Shown piece by piece: positions 1 through 6,563 of a DNA stretch of 36,779 nt. Every line of letters begins with the position of its first letter. Positions within the stretch are counted from its first letter, which is position 1. The notes below the pieces were generated by a model that was given only the letters and a program-made list of their open reading frames with translations, was not told where the DNA came from and searched no databases. Position numbers and translations under genes: made by a program. Origin of the DNA: Clostridiales bacterium (lineage in GTDB: Bacteria; Bacillota; Clostridia; Mahellales; Mahellaceae); assembly GCA_030156435.1 (NCBI GenBank), contig JASGMM010000012.1, positions 1 through 36,779 on the forward strand, given 5' to 3'.

Positions 1-125
1 CCTCCTGTTTTAGAAACATTATCGATCAGAAACTCCCTTATTTCATTCGATAAAGTCTTAAGCTGGTCTATATCCAATGCTTTCAAGCTCTCAGGACTAT
101 CTATATCATCGAGCAATCTACTCAT
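1..125 (-). CDS. dxs: 1-deoxy-D-xylulose-5-phosphate synthase, N-terminal fragment (runs off the window)
   Basis: Reading from the ATG at 125 towards the window edge gives about 41 residues beginning MSRLLDDIDSPESLKAL and continuing LDIDQLKTLSNEIREFLID, ending in the VSKTGG segment. This is the characteristic N terminus of DXS, which condenses pyruvate and glyceraldehyde 3-phosphate in the first step of the MEP isoprenoid pathway. The start codon overlaps the stop of oapA in an ATGA arrangement, so the two are probably translationally coupled. The gene order ispA - OLE - oapA - dxs supports the call. The rest of the enzyme, including the thiamine diphosphate site, lies outside the window. Confidence 0.87.
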   Translation of the reverse strand, partial: MSRLLDDIDSPESLKALDIDQLKTLSNEIREFLIDNVSKTG

Positions 126-781
126 AGGTCTTTCCTTTCCCTTCGCATCAGCGAGATTAAGTATTTCGGGCTTTTTATTATAATATCCAAAATATATGCA
201 ACCCTGTATACTATCTCTTCGGAATTATTTATAGCGTAATTTTTACCTAAGGCTTTGCCTCCTATAGTAAGCGATGCTATGCCGGCGCTGAGCATTATGC
301 TTATAATCATATCATAACTATTATGGGCTAAAACTATAAGTTTGCCCGCTATCACCGCTCCTGCCGCTCCGCTTATGACACCTGCTATATCGCCTATTAC
401 ATCATTGCAAAAACTTGATACCTTATCGGCATTGCGCACAAACTGCACAGCCAGAGCTGCTCCTGGCATTTTACGCGCCGAGCGTGCATGAAAGGGCGCC
501 TCCTTGGAAGCAGTAACCGCTACTCCTATTATATCAAATATTACGCCTATTGCTATAATAATTATTAGGATTATCCATGCCATAAAAAGATCCGCCGATT
601 GAATTGTAGTCTCAGATATTAAACTCATGATAGAGGATATAAGAAATGCTATGCCCGTAACCACCAAAGGCCAGCGATCTCGATGATTTTTATTGTTTTT
701 AGAATTTTTAGTTTTAATTTTATTATTTTTTACAACGCTTTTCCCTTTATGTAAGTGAATATCGCTATCGTCATTATCCAT
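122..781 (-). CDS. oapA: OLE-associated membrane protein OapA
   Basis: A 219-residue membrane protein lying directly between the putative OLE RNA gene and dxs, the position of OapA, the protein partner of OLE RNA. I place the start at 781 because an AAAGAGG ribosome site (793-799) precedes it at suitable spacing; an in-frame ATG at 826 would run into the RNA's 3' end. The N-terminal 35 residues are polar and Lys/Asn-rich, followed by hydrophobic segments at about 37-57, 65-88, 126-150 and 156-176. The loop at 95-130 holds a conserved-looking stretch with PFHARSARKMPGAA and FCNDVIGDIAG, resembling the CNNM/CorB (DUF21) type of membrane domain. OapA binds OLE RNA and anchors it to the membrane in Bacillus halodurans; here that role is inferred from position and topology. 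Confidence 0.82.
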   Translation of the reverse strand: MDNDDSDIHLHKGKSVVKNNKIKTKNSKNNKNHRDRWPLVVTGIAFLISSIMSLISETTIQSADLFMAWIILIIIIAIGVIFDIIGVAVTASKEAPFHARSARKMPGAALAVQFVRNADKVSSFCNDVIGDIAGVISGAAGAVIAGKLIVLAHNSYDMIISIMLSAGIASLTIGGKALGKNYAINNSEEIVYRVAYILDIIIKSPKYLISLMRRERKDL

Positions 782-829
782 GAAAGCATTAACCTCTTTA
801 AATAATATACATTGCGATGGCAGCATGTT

Positions 830-1404
830 GGGTAAACTCTGCGGCTTAGGTTCGGTAGGATTTCCCAGACGATTACTCTCCGTCGCCGGAGGAGCGGTTT
901 CCCTTTAAAATCGTCATGCCGAGTCGCCTATGGCATTCACCGAATCGCCACTAAGTCCACACTTTAATCCCCAACATGCCTCGTGATGAGCAGCCTAGGA
1001 GCTTTCCTCAACAGCCAAATCGATCCCTAGCCTCTTTTGCAACATAGGTTTCAAGCAGCGATAACCTCGCGCCTTCGGCGCCTTCCGGCCAAGGTGTGAA
1101 CTGCTATCCACCTATATCACTCAAGGCAGGCTACACTGTACACAGCGTCGTTTGCCGCATACAGGTTCATCCCCGAGCAGTAGCGCTTTCTTACTGAAGC
1201 ACCACCCTCTCGGGCCTCCGCGATAGATGGGTCATCGGCTGCATGCCATTGCAGCTTGCCCACCTATCTTAACTCCCAGCACCAGCCCCCGACTGGGCGT
1301 CAGAAGCCAGCACCAGGAACTTCATCGTTGTGCCCTTAGCGGATTTTTAGCCCCGCTTTCAGGATCGATAGCGCTGACTAGGATACTGCGCCATCGCACT
1401 TGTA
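830..1404 (-). ncRNA. ole: OLE (ornate large extremophilic) RNA
   Basis: About 575 bases with no convincing ORF, markedly richer in G+C than the AT-rich flanks, located immediately upstream of oapA and, before an IS insertion, just downstream of ispA. That is the known locus of OLE RNA (about 600 nt). The minus strand folds locally into several strong hairpins, e.g. GCGCC/GGCGC around a 3-nt loop at 1069-1081, a GCTGCA/TGCAGC hairpin near 1240-1257, and a GC-rich stem near 875-895. The 5' end is set from an extended -10 promoter at 1411-1440 and the 3' end from the oapA ribosome site; both are approximate. OLE forms a membrane ribonucleoprotein with OapA and is linked to tolerance of cold, ethanol and Mg2+ stress. 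Assignment rests on synteny, size and composition; a covariance-model search was not possible. Confidence 0.82.
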
Positions 1405-1410
1405 GATATA

Positions 1411-1440
1411 ATTATAACATATACATATAAATACATGCAA
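1411..1440 (-). promoter_or_regulatory. Extended -10 sigma-A promoter for OLE RNA
   Basis: On the minus strand a perfect TATAAT (1411-1416) is preceded by TGT, giving an extended -10, with a weak TTGCAT -35 (1435-1440) at 18 bp. Transcription would start near 1404, where the GC-rich RNA begins. The IS target duplication ends at 1449, nine bases upstream of the -35, so the promoter survived the insertion. Confidence 0.6.
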
Positions 1441-1448
1441 ATCTCATA

Positions 1449-1457
1449 GAGCATCGC
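1449..1457. repeat. Left target-site duplication of the IS
   Basis: GAGCATCGC, identical to 4231-4239 on the other side of the element. The two copies abut the outermost bases of the terminal inverted repeats. Confidence 0.9.
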
Positions 1458-1468
1458 CAGGGGTGAAG
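1458..1468 (+). repeat. IS terminal inverted repeat, left end
   Basis: CAGGGGTGAAG, perfect inverse match to 4220-4230. The 250 bases between this repeat and the transposase stop hold no convincing gene and probably contain subterminal transposase-binding sequence. Confidence 0.88.
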
Positions 1469-1724
1469 CATGAAAATTTACAATCGGCATTTCATCAGCT
1501 TATATGTACCAACTATTTAATATTGCATGCACTAACTGGCTTTATAGAAGCTGTCTATGTAGAAAAGTATCTGAATTTGAACACATCATACCGCTTAATC
1601 GTTATTTTACACCTATTTTTGGGCAGTATTGTACCCTTAGGCTTATAAAACGCTTTAAGTAAAGCTCTAAAACTTGCCCTTATATTCCATTAGATAAACA
1701 TACTTATTGTTGCTATCCCTCGTT

Positions 1725-3173
1725 TTACATAAATTCTGAAGGTACTAACCTCCATTGCCGCTTCTTTGATATGGCTGCTTGTATCCCTTCTTTATCAAGT
1801 ACCGCACCCTTTAATGCTTCGTATAAATCTTTTATAAATTGCTGAACCCCTCGCTCTTTTACCATTTCAGCCACTAGTTCGCTATGAACCAATAACTCGT
1901 TGATAAAGTGCGCTATCTTCATCAGATAATGGTATCCTTTCATAGCGTTCCAATTATATGATAAGCAGTGTTCATATTCATAACCATAATGTTTTTCTTC
2001 TAAAATGTTATTTTCTATCTTCCATCTGTATCGCGCCATCTCGGTACACCGGTAAAATATGTTGTATTTGTTGATCGTTTTGCCGGATATCCACGCATAA
2101 CGCGTCTTTTTGTGCTCGATTTCATCGCTGTTGCGCTTAACCTCGTCCCATTCTTCGTCGCATATCACCACGTCGAAAGTCTCTTTATTTCTCCCATTTT
2201 GCCCGTAATAGTAGGCAACATCGTTTGCCCATCTGTATTCTTGATGCCGATTCCCCCAGTCGCATTCGTAACAGTTTTCGCTCTCCAATTTCATTATCCC
2301 TTCGGCATCTTCCCAGACTTCTTTAAGGCAGTTGTCTTTTAACACAATCATATAATCCCAGTTATATTGTTTGCATATGCGTATTACCGGTCCACAGGCG
2401 TATAGTCCATCAACTACTATCGAAAGACGGCTTTTGGGAAATATACTTTTTATCTTTTTTGCTATACGGTAAAACGCCTTCCTTTCACAATCCTGCTTAT
2501 TTGTTTCGCTGCCATATCCCTTGTTATCAAGAAGCTCACTTGCTACGGGTAGGATTATACCGTTATCCAATATTAGTACCGCCTCCAGCACATAAGCATA
2601 ATACTGAGCATGTTTTTCTCCTTCTTTGCCTACATGGCGCTCTAAACAATGCTCGGACCACCTGTAATCGCGTGAGTACTTTTGTGTCCCATCAATGGCT
2701 ATTACGTATTGATGCTTACACAGATAATTCTTGAACTTCTTCCTCCTGATAAGATCTTTTAATAGTTCTATCATGCATTCCTGAATCTGTTCAACATCCT
2801 CTATATCTTCAAGTAGCCTTGCTAGTGTATCGGCGTGAGGAATGGTTTCTAATTCTGGAAAGGTGATTTTTAGGTTTTCGATAAATATTGGGTTGGTCAT
2901 CTCTCTATTTGTTCGCCTACGCGATGATACTTGCAGCAAAAACATAATGATACCGTATAGTAGTAATACAGTCATTTCGTATTTGATTTTGCCAGTTTGT
3001 CTTGGATCAGGTATTTTGCTCAGTTTTTTAAGCAACGGCGGCAATATTTGTTTGAAGATGACAGTTGTCCTTTCGACCATATCCTGCCTCGCTGCCATTT
3101 CTTCCGCTTGATTTCTCCAAGATGATTTGCGATTGGGTATGGATGTTTTTTTAGTCTTAAAATGAAAATCCAC
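1725..3173 (-). CDS. IS4-superfamily DDE transposase
   Basis: A 482-residue transposase, the second gene of the insertion sequence. The N-terminal part (about 45-85) reads LSKIPDPRQTGKIKYEMTVL followed by a hydrophobic stretch, like the associated N-terminal domain of ISAs1/IS4-type transposases. The catalytic core shows D161 in AIDGTQ, D255 in SIVVDGLYACG, and a C-terminal R383-(3)-E387-(6)-K394 signature in RYRWKIENNILEEK. All three acidic residues are present and the frame is open, so the enzyme looks active. It starts 10 bp after the DruA-like gene, so the two are cotranscribed. It would cut and join the element's ends; the exact IS family is uncertain. Confidence 0.9.
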   Translation of the reverse strand: MDFHFKTKKTSIPNRKSSWRNQAEEMAARQDMVERTTVIFKQILPPLLKKLSKIPDPRQTGKIKYEMTVLLLYGIIMFLLQVSSRRRTNREMTNPIFIENLKITFPELETIPHADTLARLLEDIEDVEQIQECMIELLKDLIRRKKFKNYLCKHQYVIAIDGTQKYSRDYRWSEHCLERHVGKEGEKHAQYYAYVLEAVLILDNGIILPVASELLDNKGYGSETNKQDCERKAFYRIAKKIKSIFPKSRLSIVVDGLYACGPVIRICKQYNWDYMIVLKDNCLKEVWEDAEGIMKLESENCYECDWGNRHQEYRWANDVAYYYGQNGRNKETFDVVICDEEWDEVKRNSDEIEHKKTRYAWISGKTINKYNIFYRCTEMARYRWKIENNILEEKHYGYEYEHCLSYNWNAMKGYHYLMKIAHFINELLVHSELVAEMVKERGVQQFIKDLYEALKGAVLDKEGIQAAISKKRQWRLVPSEFM

Positions 3174-3183
3174 CTTTGAACCT

Positions 3184-4092
3184 TTATTCTTCGTCTGGAT
3201 TAATCCTCCTGTATGGCCTTTCTCCCCTAAGGTAAGTCATAAAGTCTTTCTCGAGAGGATATACGTATATAGCTTTACGTGATAGAGGGTATTCTTTGTT
3301 TTTATCCATCCGCCCACGGCCTTTGGTTTGACCAAGATAGAGCCAGTTAGCCGCCTTGTAGCATGTGCCGGCAAAGTGCTCTAAGTCAACGAAGGTTTCC
3401 AGTAATACCGGTGCATAGCAGTACCATTTTAACCAGTCGCTTTGTATCTGCCTGGCAGCTATGGACAGTACCTTACTAGCAAGGTTTTGTATGTGCGCCC
3501 ATGGTAGAATAAGAAAGCGACTGTTATTTATTATGAGGTGCAATCGCTCTTTCTTATCTTGTATACTCCAACCTATCCATCTATCTCTATGTTCAAGTGC
3601 CCATGCTGAGGCTGAAAATTCCAAACACCCCAGTTCTTTATCACCCGATTTTATGAAATAGTGAAGCCTGGAGCCAAATTCTTGTTTGTAACCGAGCATA
3701 TGGTATTGGTCCAGGTATGCCTTCCAACGGGCAAATGATGGTTGCCCGCTAGTTACAATTTCAAGATAAATGGGTTCATATTCTGATAGCTCCCCACATA
3801 TTGGTGTGGTGTCAAATTCCATGTGCTGTGTTTTAGTGGATACTTTCCTTATGCGAGATCGCTTGGGCTCAGGAAGCTGTATGATTCCCTCGGTTTCTAG
3901 CTTTTGCAGCAATAGTAAACACTGCGGTGTTTTAGGTCGCCCTGCTGGTGTCGTCCAATCCAGAAATTCGCATACCGTTGAAGCCAGTTCGCCTCTGGGT
4001 AGTGATTGGTATGTTTGTCTGGCCCATTTTATGAGTTCTATGTCCTCGCTGGTAAAATTTCTACCAGCAAATGTTATGATAGTATCATTCAT
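3184..4092 (-). CDS. DUF4338 (DruA-like) protein of the insertion sequence
   Basis: A 302-residue protein whose C-terminal part contains the DUF4338 signature FAGTCYKAANW (240-250) followed by LGQTKGRGR (253-261). The middle region (about 105-205) has LEFSASAWALEHRDRWIGW and NNSRFLILPW, also typical. DUF4338 is the domain of DruA in the Druantia antiphage system, and homologues are often found next to transposases. Its biochemical function is not established. Here it is the first gene of a complete IS, inside the terminal repeats, with the transposase 10 bp downstream and none of the large Druantia helicase genes present. I infer a role in transposition or in protecting the element rather than a Druantia system. 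Confidence 0.82.
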   Translation of the reverse strand: MNDTIITFAGRNFTSEDIELIKWARQTYQSLPRGELASTVCEFLDWTTPAGRPKTPQCLLLLQKLETEGIIQLPEPKRSRIRKVSTKTQHMEFDTTPICGELSEYEPIYLEIVTSGQPSFARWKAYLDQYHMLGYKQEFGSRLHYFIKSGDKELGCLEFSASAWALEHRDRWIGWSIQDKKERLHLIINNSRFLILPWAHIQNLASKVLSIAARQIQSDWLKWYCYAPVLLETFVDLEHFAGTCYKAANWLYLGQTKGRGRMDKNKEYPLSRKAIYVYPLEKDFMTYLRGERPYRRINPDEE

Positions 4093-4120
4093 AATTAAGT
4101 ATTCCTACCTTTCCAATACT

Positions 4121-4149
4121 ATCATAACATTTTCGCTTTTTTGCGTCCA
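4121..4149 (-). promoter_or_regulatory. Sigma-A promoter of the IS genes
   Basis: Minus strand TGGACG (4144-4149), 17-bp spacer, TATGAT (4121-4126). It lies inside the right end of the element, about 30 bp before the DruA-like start codon, so the element carries its own promoter reading towards OLE. Confidence 0.6.
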
Positions 4150-4219
4150 GTTCTTTTTGAGAAAAAATTTATTTTCTGTACCCTTCTAAGCCTCATATGC
4201 CACTACTTTTAATTTCGCT

Positions 4220-4230
4220 CTTCACCCCTG
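4220..4230 (-). repeat. IS terminal inverted repeat, right end
   Basis: CTTCACCCCTG on the plus strand, perfect inverse of 1458-1468. It sits about 70 bp upstream of the promoter that drives the element's two genes. Confidence 0.88.
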
Positions 4231-4239
4231 GAGCATCGC
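4231..4239. repeat. Right target-site duplication of the IS
   Basis: GAGCATCGC, identical to 1449-1457. Collapsing the two copies puts the ispA stop about 45 bp from the OLE -35 box. Confidence 0.9.
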
Positions 4240-4268
4240 TTAAGCGAGCAAATCGCTATAAAACCATA

Positions 4269-5117
4269 TTAATTGCGGCGCCGCATCATATAGGAGGCCA
4301 TTTCTTTCAAAAACGTCCCTTTTTGACCGAAAACGGCTATTGCATCTATTGCATGCTGCGTGAATTCTTGTGCTGCTTTTATGGATGCCTCGATGCCGTA
4401 TAGTGCCGGATATGTAGCTTTAACTTCCTCTTTACCGCCTTCGTCCACGTCCAGTATGTCATCGCTTATCTGAAACGCCATGCCCAGCGCCAAACCGTAT
4501 TGCTCTATAGCCCGCACATATACATCATCAGCACCTGCAGCCAAGGCACCGGCTTTTACTGCTGCGCATATCAAGGCAGCGGTTTTATGCTGATGGATAT
4601 ATTGTAAAACGCCATCGTCCACAGGCTTATTTTCATACAATAAATCCATAACCTGCCCTCCTATCATACCGCCTATACCTGCCGCTTTTGCAATGGCTAT
4701 GGCAGCGGCTATATGATGAGGATTCCGAGCTATGTCATCTAGCATGACTTCAAACGCGTGATTGAGTAGAGCATCGCCGGTCAACACCGCTATACCCTCG
4801 CCAAACACTTTATGGCATGTCGCCTTGCCTCTTCTCGTGTCATCATCGTCCATAGCCGGGAGATCATCGTGTATAAGCGAATAAGTATGAATGAATTCTA
4901 TAGCGCATGCAAGCGGCATACAATCGTCTACATGCTCATCAAACAGTTCATAAGCCGATATAAGCAGCACCGGCCTCAATCTTTTACCACCGCTGAAGAC
5001 GCTGTAACGCATGGCTTCGTGTATTACCGGGGGATAAGTATCAGCAGGCGGAAGCATATTATCCAGATTTTTATCTATTATTTCTATTTTATGTTTTAGC
5101 TGTTGGTTAAAATCCAT
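4269..5117 (-). CDS. ispA: Farnesyl/geranyl diphosphate synthase
   Basis: A 282-residue trans-prenyl diphosphate synthase that joins IPP to DMAPP and GPP to make farnesyl diphosphate, the precursor of undecaprenyl and other isoprenoids. The family motifs are clear: GGKRLRP near 43-49, the first aspartate-rich motif in HDDLPAMDDDDTRRGK (about 83-98), and the second, ISDDILDV, near 217-224. The segment after the second motif (DVDEGGKEEVKATYPALYG) is shorter than in most homologues, which usually carry a GKxxGxD loop there. The start lies a few bases after xseB. The gene is the last before the IS; originally OLE RNA followed directly, then oapA and dxs. Confidence 0.93.
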   Translation of the reverse strand: MDFNQQLKHKIEIIDKNLDNMLPPADTYPPVIHEAMRYSVFSGGKRLRPVLLISAYELFDEHVDDCMPLACAIEFIHTYSLIHDDLPAMDDDDTRRGKATCHKVFGEGIAVLTGDALLNHAFEVMLDDIARNPHHIAAAIAIAKAAGIGGMIGGQVMDLLYENKPVDDGVLQYIHQHKTAALICAAVKAGALAAGADDVYVRAIEQYGLALGMAFQISDDILDVDEGGKEEVKATYPALYGIEASIKAAQEFTQHAIDAIAVFGQKGTFLKEMASYMMRRRN

Positions 5118-5125
5118 ATCTGTCC

Positions 5126-5350
5126 TTAGTTAAAAGGAACCTCCTTAAAAGCATTTTGCTCTTTCATCAGCATGGTTATCTTACCTTCGGCTTCGTCAAG
5201 CTTTTGGCTGCAATAGCGCGATAATTCCATGCCGCGCTCGAATAATGCTATAGCCTGGTCCAATGCAACATCTCCATTTTCTAAAGATGTTACTATATTT
5301 TCTAATTCGCGGATAGCTTTTTCAAAGGTCATATCATCTTCTATCATCAT
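5126..5350 (-). CDS. xseB: Exodeoxyribonuclease VII small subunit
   Basis: A 74-residue protein matching the usual length of XseB, with MTFEKAIRELENIVTSLE and GDVALDQAIALFERGMEL forming the conserved helical pair and an acidic C-terminal helix. Several XseB chains bind one XseA to form the nuclease that degrades single-stranded DNA to oligonucleotides. Its start overlaps the end of xseA by 17 bp, indicating translational coupling. A second in-frame ATG follows immediately and a third six codons in, so the true start may be slightly later. Confidence 0.93.
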   Translation of the reverse strand: MMIEDDMTFEKAIRELENIVTSLENGDVALDQAIALFERGMELSRYCSQKLDEAEGKITMLMKEQNAFKEVPFN

Positions 5351-6563
5351 TTTCCCTTTCGACTTCTAGATCCACGATCTCAGCCTGTGCTCGACCATCA
5401 TCGTAGATTATATGTATACGTTGCCCTAATGAAAGCTCGCTAACAGACTTAATGAGACTTTCATCCTCGACATCTAGCGTCATGGTATAGCCGCGTTTCA
5501 ATGCACCCAAGGGATTAAATGCTTCTAGCCTATGCTTAAGATCATTGTACAAAGCGCCTTTTATTTCCATCCGATGATGCATATTTATCAGCAAATATCG
5601 TTCGGCTTGATCCAATTGCTGCTGTTTATCTTTCAAAAGCTGCATAGGATCACGCATAATGCGGCTGCCCTGCAATTTATAAAGACACCGGCGTTGTTCT
5701 TCCACTAGCATATCCACCGCTCGCTTGGCATTCAAGCACAGCCCGGCAATACGCTGCTCCAATTCGGTTTTTAGTGGGACAACCAATTCAGCGGCAGCCG
5801 ACGGTGTGGGCGCCCGCATATCCGCTACAAAATCGGATATGGTGAAATCGGTTTCATGGCCTACTGCCGATACAACAGGTATATGAGAGCGATATATACT
5901 GCGTGCCACGACCTCTTCATTAAAGGGCCATAATTCCTCTATTGAACCGCCGCCTCTACCTACTATTATAACATCTACCGATTCATCCATAACATTCAGC
6001 GCATCTATAGCTTCGCTTATCTGTATAGCTGCAGCCCTGCCCTGCACAGCCACCGGCACTATGAGCAGGTCAATGTTCGGATAGCGGCGATGTGCCACAT
6101 TTATTATATCGCGTACAACTGATCCAGTATCAGACGTTACCACGCCTATGCGTTTAGGAAGCAAAGGCAGCGGCTTTTTATGCGCCTGATCAAACAGACC
6201 CTCTTGTTCCAGCTTAGCTTTAAGCTGCTCGAAAGCCAAATGCAAGGATCCAACACCGAACGGCTCTATCCTTTCGGCATATAGTTGATATTGCCCATCC
6301 CTGTCATAAACATTCACATAACCCTGTACCAATACATCCATGCCATCCTGCATCGCAAAAATCGGCTGCCCATATTGCCTGAACATCACACAGCGTATTT
6401 TGCTGTTGTGGTCCTTCAGCGTAAAATAGCTGTGACCTGAGGAATGCAGTTTATAATTTGATATTTCGCCGCGCACATACACCGAGCGCAATAACGGATC
6501 AGAAGAAAACATGCCTTTTATATAAGCTGTCAACTGACTTACGCTGAATATCAGAGTTTCCAT
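5334..6563 (-). CDS. xseA: Exodeoxyribonuclease VII large subunit
   Basis: A 409-residue XseA with an N-terminal OB-fold (VYVRGEISNYKLHSSGHSYF, about 27-46), then the catalytic core with RIGVVTSDTGSVVRDI, IIVGRGGGSIEELW and SAVGHETDFTISDFVADMRA, all diagnostic. A helical C-terminal arm (about 270-360) ends in the LKRGYTMT segment. The length is normal for clostridia. It works with XseB in degrading single-stranded DNA during repair and recombination. The start overlaps the folD stop by 13 bp and the end overlaps xseB, so folD-xseA-xseB form a tight unit. Confidence 0.95.
   Translation of the reverse strand: METLIFSVSQLTAYIKGMFSSDPLLRSVYVRGEISNYKLHSSGHSYFTLKDHNSKIRCVMFRQYGQPIFAMQDGMDVLVQGYVNVYDRDGQYQLYAERIEPFGVGSLHLAFEQLKAKLEQEGLFDQAHKKPLPLLPKRIGVVTSDTGSVVRDIINVAHRRYPNIDLLIVPVAVQGRAAAIQISEAIDALNVMDESVDVIIVGRGGGSIEELWPFNEEVVARSIYRSHIPVVSAVGHETDFTISDFVADMRAPTPSAAAELVVPLKTELEQRIAGLCLNAKRAVDMLVEEQRRCLYKLQGSRIMRDPMQLLKDKQQQLDQAERYLLINMHHRMEIKGALYNDLKHRLEAFNPLGALKRGYTMTLDVEDESLIKSVSELSLGQRIHIIYDDGRAQAEIVDLEVERENDDRR

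Follow-up and report, generated by a model that had tools for sequence, protein, structure and literature searches.

OLE is a large bacterial RNA that acts at the cell membrane together with partner proteins. The ole gene cluster of Halalkalibacterium halodurans has been reported as one polycistronic transcript (PMC12265935). Cryo-EM has shown that OLE dimerizes, with contacts formed by loops that are A-rich in P4, GCCCA in P5.1 and AAUGGC in P6.1 (PMC12265935), and with the L9.3 loops of the two RNAs kissing via the palindrome GGCC, for which some species have GAUC or AGCU (PMC12286853). A weak relationship links the partner protein OapA to the CNNM domain of MpfA, a Mg2+ exporter whose occurrence anticorrelates with that of OLE (PMC11332333). 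We find that the window analyzed here (36,779 nucleotides of contig JASGMM010000012.1, from an organism of the genus Mahella) contains a genuine, complete copy of OLE, an additional example of this published RNA class. From its sequence, the copy appears unusual only in the mobile element just upstream of its promoter and in a changed predicted dimer-contact loop. No paper naming OLE RNA and Mahella together was found in the literature searched, which does not prove that none exists.

An Rfam scan of the whole window placed the OLE model (RF01071) on positions 1410-801 of the minus strand with a score of 506.3 bits (E 8e-146), about ten times the cut-off (gathering score) of 50 bits. The alignment spans model positions 1-616 of 616 over 610 nt of RNA. 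The initial annotation had named the stretch OLE and proposed a covariance-model search of the minus strand; that search thus gave the full-length, high-scoring match and the name is right. A whole-genome search found a single OLE copy, the one in the window, and no OLE match in 14 control genomes, which together with the E-value excludes a chance match. The other Rfam match in the window is a cobalamin riboswitch (27316-27157, minus strand, 81.7 bits). Canonical pairing is retained at 147 of the 159 consensus pairs counted on the RF01071 alignment (7 are non-standard and 5 gapped), and in 43 of these 147 both bases have changed relative to the consensus with pairing kept. Strongly conserved consensus positions, those given as capital letters, are identical at 231/249. 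The RNA is of the full-length type, with P7/P8 present and a model alignment free of large deletions, and the OapB site at P13 is present with a GCGA tetraloop at its tip. The ole gene is accordingly placed at 801..1410 (minus strand), with a predicted 5' end near 1404, as judged from the -10 box, and a predicted 3' end near 801-820. The stretch is ORF-poor over about 600 nt, much as had been described, its extent (1410-801) being slightly longer than the 575 nt at 830-1404 originally called ORF-free. Among frames of at least 60 aa, only one of 67 aa on the plus strand (1227-1430) overlaps much of it; this frame is unsupported and we regard it as spurious, rejecting a coding explanation. The oapA frame, when extended 5' to 826, likewise overlaps the OLE end.

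Directly downstream, the OapA-type gene that had been recognized there is borne out both by homology and by CNNM similarity. oapA (122..781, minus strand) encodes a 219 aa membrane protein, the OLE partner, assigned from its CNNM match, tblastn relatives and hydrophobic segments. The Pfam match to CNNM is weak (E 7e-4, below the curated cut-off), in agreement with the published OapA-CNNM similarity (PMC11332333), and by tblastn across the window genome and its relatives OapA homologs are encoded beside OLE in 28/28 loci; a scan of genome contigs returned hundreds of OapA relatives. A crude hydropathy scan resolves three separate hydrophobic regions, and four helices have been reported for OapA. 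A start codon at 826, inside the RNA, was considered and rejected, since 781 better fits a ribosome-binding site and in several relatives the alignment begins near there. The oapA stop codon (124-122) and the dxs start codon (125-123) share ATGA, giving the overlap noted in the initial annotation a length of 4 nt. Only the 5' end of dxs (1..125, minus strand) is present before the contig end; the near-identical sequence of locus L010, from the Mahella genome G002, matches DXP_synthase_N (Pfam, E 1.7e-120).

Genes for the rest of the RNP are also present, elsewhere in the genome. OapC is an 87 aa L7Ae-type protein encoded between rpoC and rpsL, with YbxF as its best solved match (4lck, E 4e-16). 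OapB, which was located by its position between map and infA and then checked against solved structures, is a 94 aa protein whose sole solved match is OLE-associated protein B (7k9b, E 1.1e-10); a KOW family search (PF00467) returned only NusG, rplX and a NusG-like protein, with OapB not among the matches. A second NusG-like protein of 184 aa, of a kind seen as specialized antiterminators, is encoded besides NusG at L031 (G000:C37, 1989-1435, minus strand). The gene for bS21 is present as well. Occurrence of OapB and OapC in a genome is common but not universal for OLE. MpfA was not found in the genome search, where OapA was the only CNNM-like protein, as expected from the reported anticorrelation (PMC11332333). 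OLE is present in 28 of the 60 relatives listed (window genome included), mostly of the same class, and two further genomes (G001 and G002) belong to Mahella. The window shares with full-length OLE RNAs (RF01071) the structure, the conserved positions, the oapA neighbor and the nearby isoprenoid genes, as well as the OapB, OapC and bS21 genes and the lack of a detected MpfA. It differs in two respects, an insertion sequence that parts ole from ispA and a P9 tip with GGCGCC where most relatives have GGCC.

The first difference lies upstream. The farnesyl diphosphate synthase gene ispA (4269..5117, minus strand; NCBIfam FPPsyn, 300.5 bits vs a cut-off of 275) is found upstream of ole together with xseB and xseA, so that ispA is on the other side of ole as had been stated, but it is not directly adjacent. 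Between them lies a 2,773 bp insertion sequence (1458..4230, minus strand), delimited by its terminal inverted repeats (CAGGGGTGAAG) and by the empty site in L010, and flanked by the 9-bp target-site duplication GAGCATCGC on the ole side (1449..1457) and on the ispA side (4231..4239). When the flanks are joined without the insert they give exactly the L010 sequence of G002. The element encodes an ISAs1-like transposase (1725..3173, minus strand; DDE_Tnp_1_assoc, PF13808, E 1.6e-10) and, as cargo, a DruA-domain protein (DUF4338; 3184..4092, minus strand; PF14236, E 6.5e-45). Members of the ISAs1 family have a DDE_Tnp_1-associated transposase, CAGGG termini and 9-bp target duplications. The window element has all of these likewise, but differs in its length of 2.77 kb and in the second gene inside its ends. 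Since this is one element with an ISAs1-like transposase, clear ends and target duplications, the DruA homolog moves as part of it. Partial relatives, most of them 73-81% identical, are found at other places in the genome. Among plasmids of Candidatus Thiodictyon, one DruA-protein relative bears the annotation DUF4338, and a feature annotated as an ISAs1 family transposase covers another matching stretch.

Counted from the duplication, the insert edge lies 8 bp from the predicted -35 box of ole, thus leaving the predicted promoter intact. The latter comprises a predicted -10 box, TATAAT (1411..1416, minus strand), preceded by TGT as an extended -10, and a predicted weak -35 box, TTGCAT (1435..1440, minus strand), at a spacing of 18 bp. 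Promoters listed by a consensus scan included none at ole, and the call therefore rests on comparison with relatives. Of 26 loci (window included) searched over the 60 bases that precede the conserved 5' motif, 19 have an exact TATAAT just 5' of OLE, vs a mean of 3.7 and a maximum of 11 in 1000 dinucleotide-preserving shuffle sets; these loci span many families but are related, two of them nearly identically, so that their effective number is lower. The enrichment supports a promoter belonging to ole itself, which would be additional to a polycistronic transcript of the H. halodurans kind.

It could be argued that the insertion, by cutting ole off from the ispA operon, has cost the gene its expression and left a silenced or decaying OLE, given that the H. 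halodurans cluster is a single transcript (PMC12265935) and that ispA and ole are parted here. We consider this improbable. The conserved regions are all intact with 147/159 pairs kept, most relatives share the TATAAT found immediately upstream, and the ole-oapA region is 99.8% identical to the uninterrupted L010 locus, in which no insertion sequence separates ispA from ole, although the last point could equally mean that the insertion is recent. The intactness of sequence and structure leads us to reject a silenced or decayed gene as the main reading. When window positions 1-6000 are compared with G002:C1, xseA-ispA-ole-oapA is ~99-100% identical and most of the remaining window 85-97%, a pattern that suggests recent recombination over a tract that includes ole. 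Still less probable, to the point of being negligible, is that the stretch serves oapA-dxs as a long 5' leader or a riboswitch-like element and is no separate RNA, for while it immediately precedes oapA, on one and the same strand, and its 3' end reaches into the likely ribosome-binding region of oapA, it matches in full a family that makes a discrete, processed, abundant trans-acting RNA (PMC11332333, PMC12265935).

The locus is thus very probably a functional ole gene belonging to a species of Mahella, and would yield from its own promoter an RNA of ~600 nt that takes up the OLE fold and works as a partner-bound RNP at the membrane. The family match, the conserved pairs and positions, the oapA, OapB, OapC and bS21 genes, the failure to find MpfA and an insertion that spares promoter and RNA all argue for a functional gene; against it stand the weak -35 box, absent from the consensus scan, and the departure of the P9 tip from the consensus. 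By analogy with the family, transcription from the putative promoter would be followed by folding into the OLE structure and, as expected, by dimerization. OapA, encoded just downstream, would hold the RNA at the membrane, and OapB, OapC and bS21 are expected to bind it. The complex may then help the cell under stresses that include cold, alcohol, high Mg2+ and poor carbon sources, a role known from published work on H. halodurans.

Finally, the second difference concerns the P9/P9.3 arm (approx. 1048..1108, minus strand), where alignment, a P9 pattern search and fold prediction indicate that the palindrome GGCGCC stands where the dimer loop usually has GGCC. In the pattern search of the loci at hand, GGCC is contained in 57 of the 66 parsed P9 arms, and GGCGCC was found in four loci representing the three Mahella genomes (L024 and L043 being the same contig). 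All these counts are rough, since many loci escaped the search and a few were parsed wrongly. GGCC is entirely absent from the P9 arm of the third Mahella genome; in the window OLE it is still present on the 5' side of the arm, predicted to lie within a stem. A 13-nt loop with GGCGCC at its center (GGAAGGCGCCGAA) could form, but in the predicted monomer fold GGCGCC instead sits in a forked tip, the forked fold being more stable than the open loop by a predicted 3.7 kcal/mol in the window and 1.4 kcal/mol in another Mahella genome. The other dimer-contact loops (A-rich in P4, GCCCA in P5.1 and AAUGGC in P6.1) are unchanged in the window OLE alignment. As far as prediction goes, the three Mahella OLEs seem to carry GGCGCC where the P9 dimer loop usually has its GGCC palindrome. 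Tentatively, and with rather more doubt than conviction, one may go on to propose jointly that a loop-loop contact in P9 made by the six bases GGCGCC, in place of the four-base GGCC, holds the Mahella dimer, and that ole is an independent transcription unit, as the insertion uncoupling it from ispA would show. If true, the P9 contact and the uncoupling from ispA would be natural experiments on OLE dimerization and on the operon.

The Mahella locus leaves present knowledge of OLE function unchanged, and is of interest for two modest variations that have arisen in nature, the insertion and the palindrome in P9. Mahella adds another complete OLE locus whose machinery is complete, in which the upstream insertion provides a natural test of whether ole can be separated from ispA, and the altered P9 loop offers a ready-made variant for testing the proposed RNA dimer contact.
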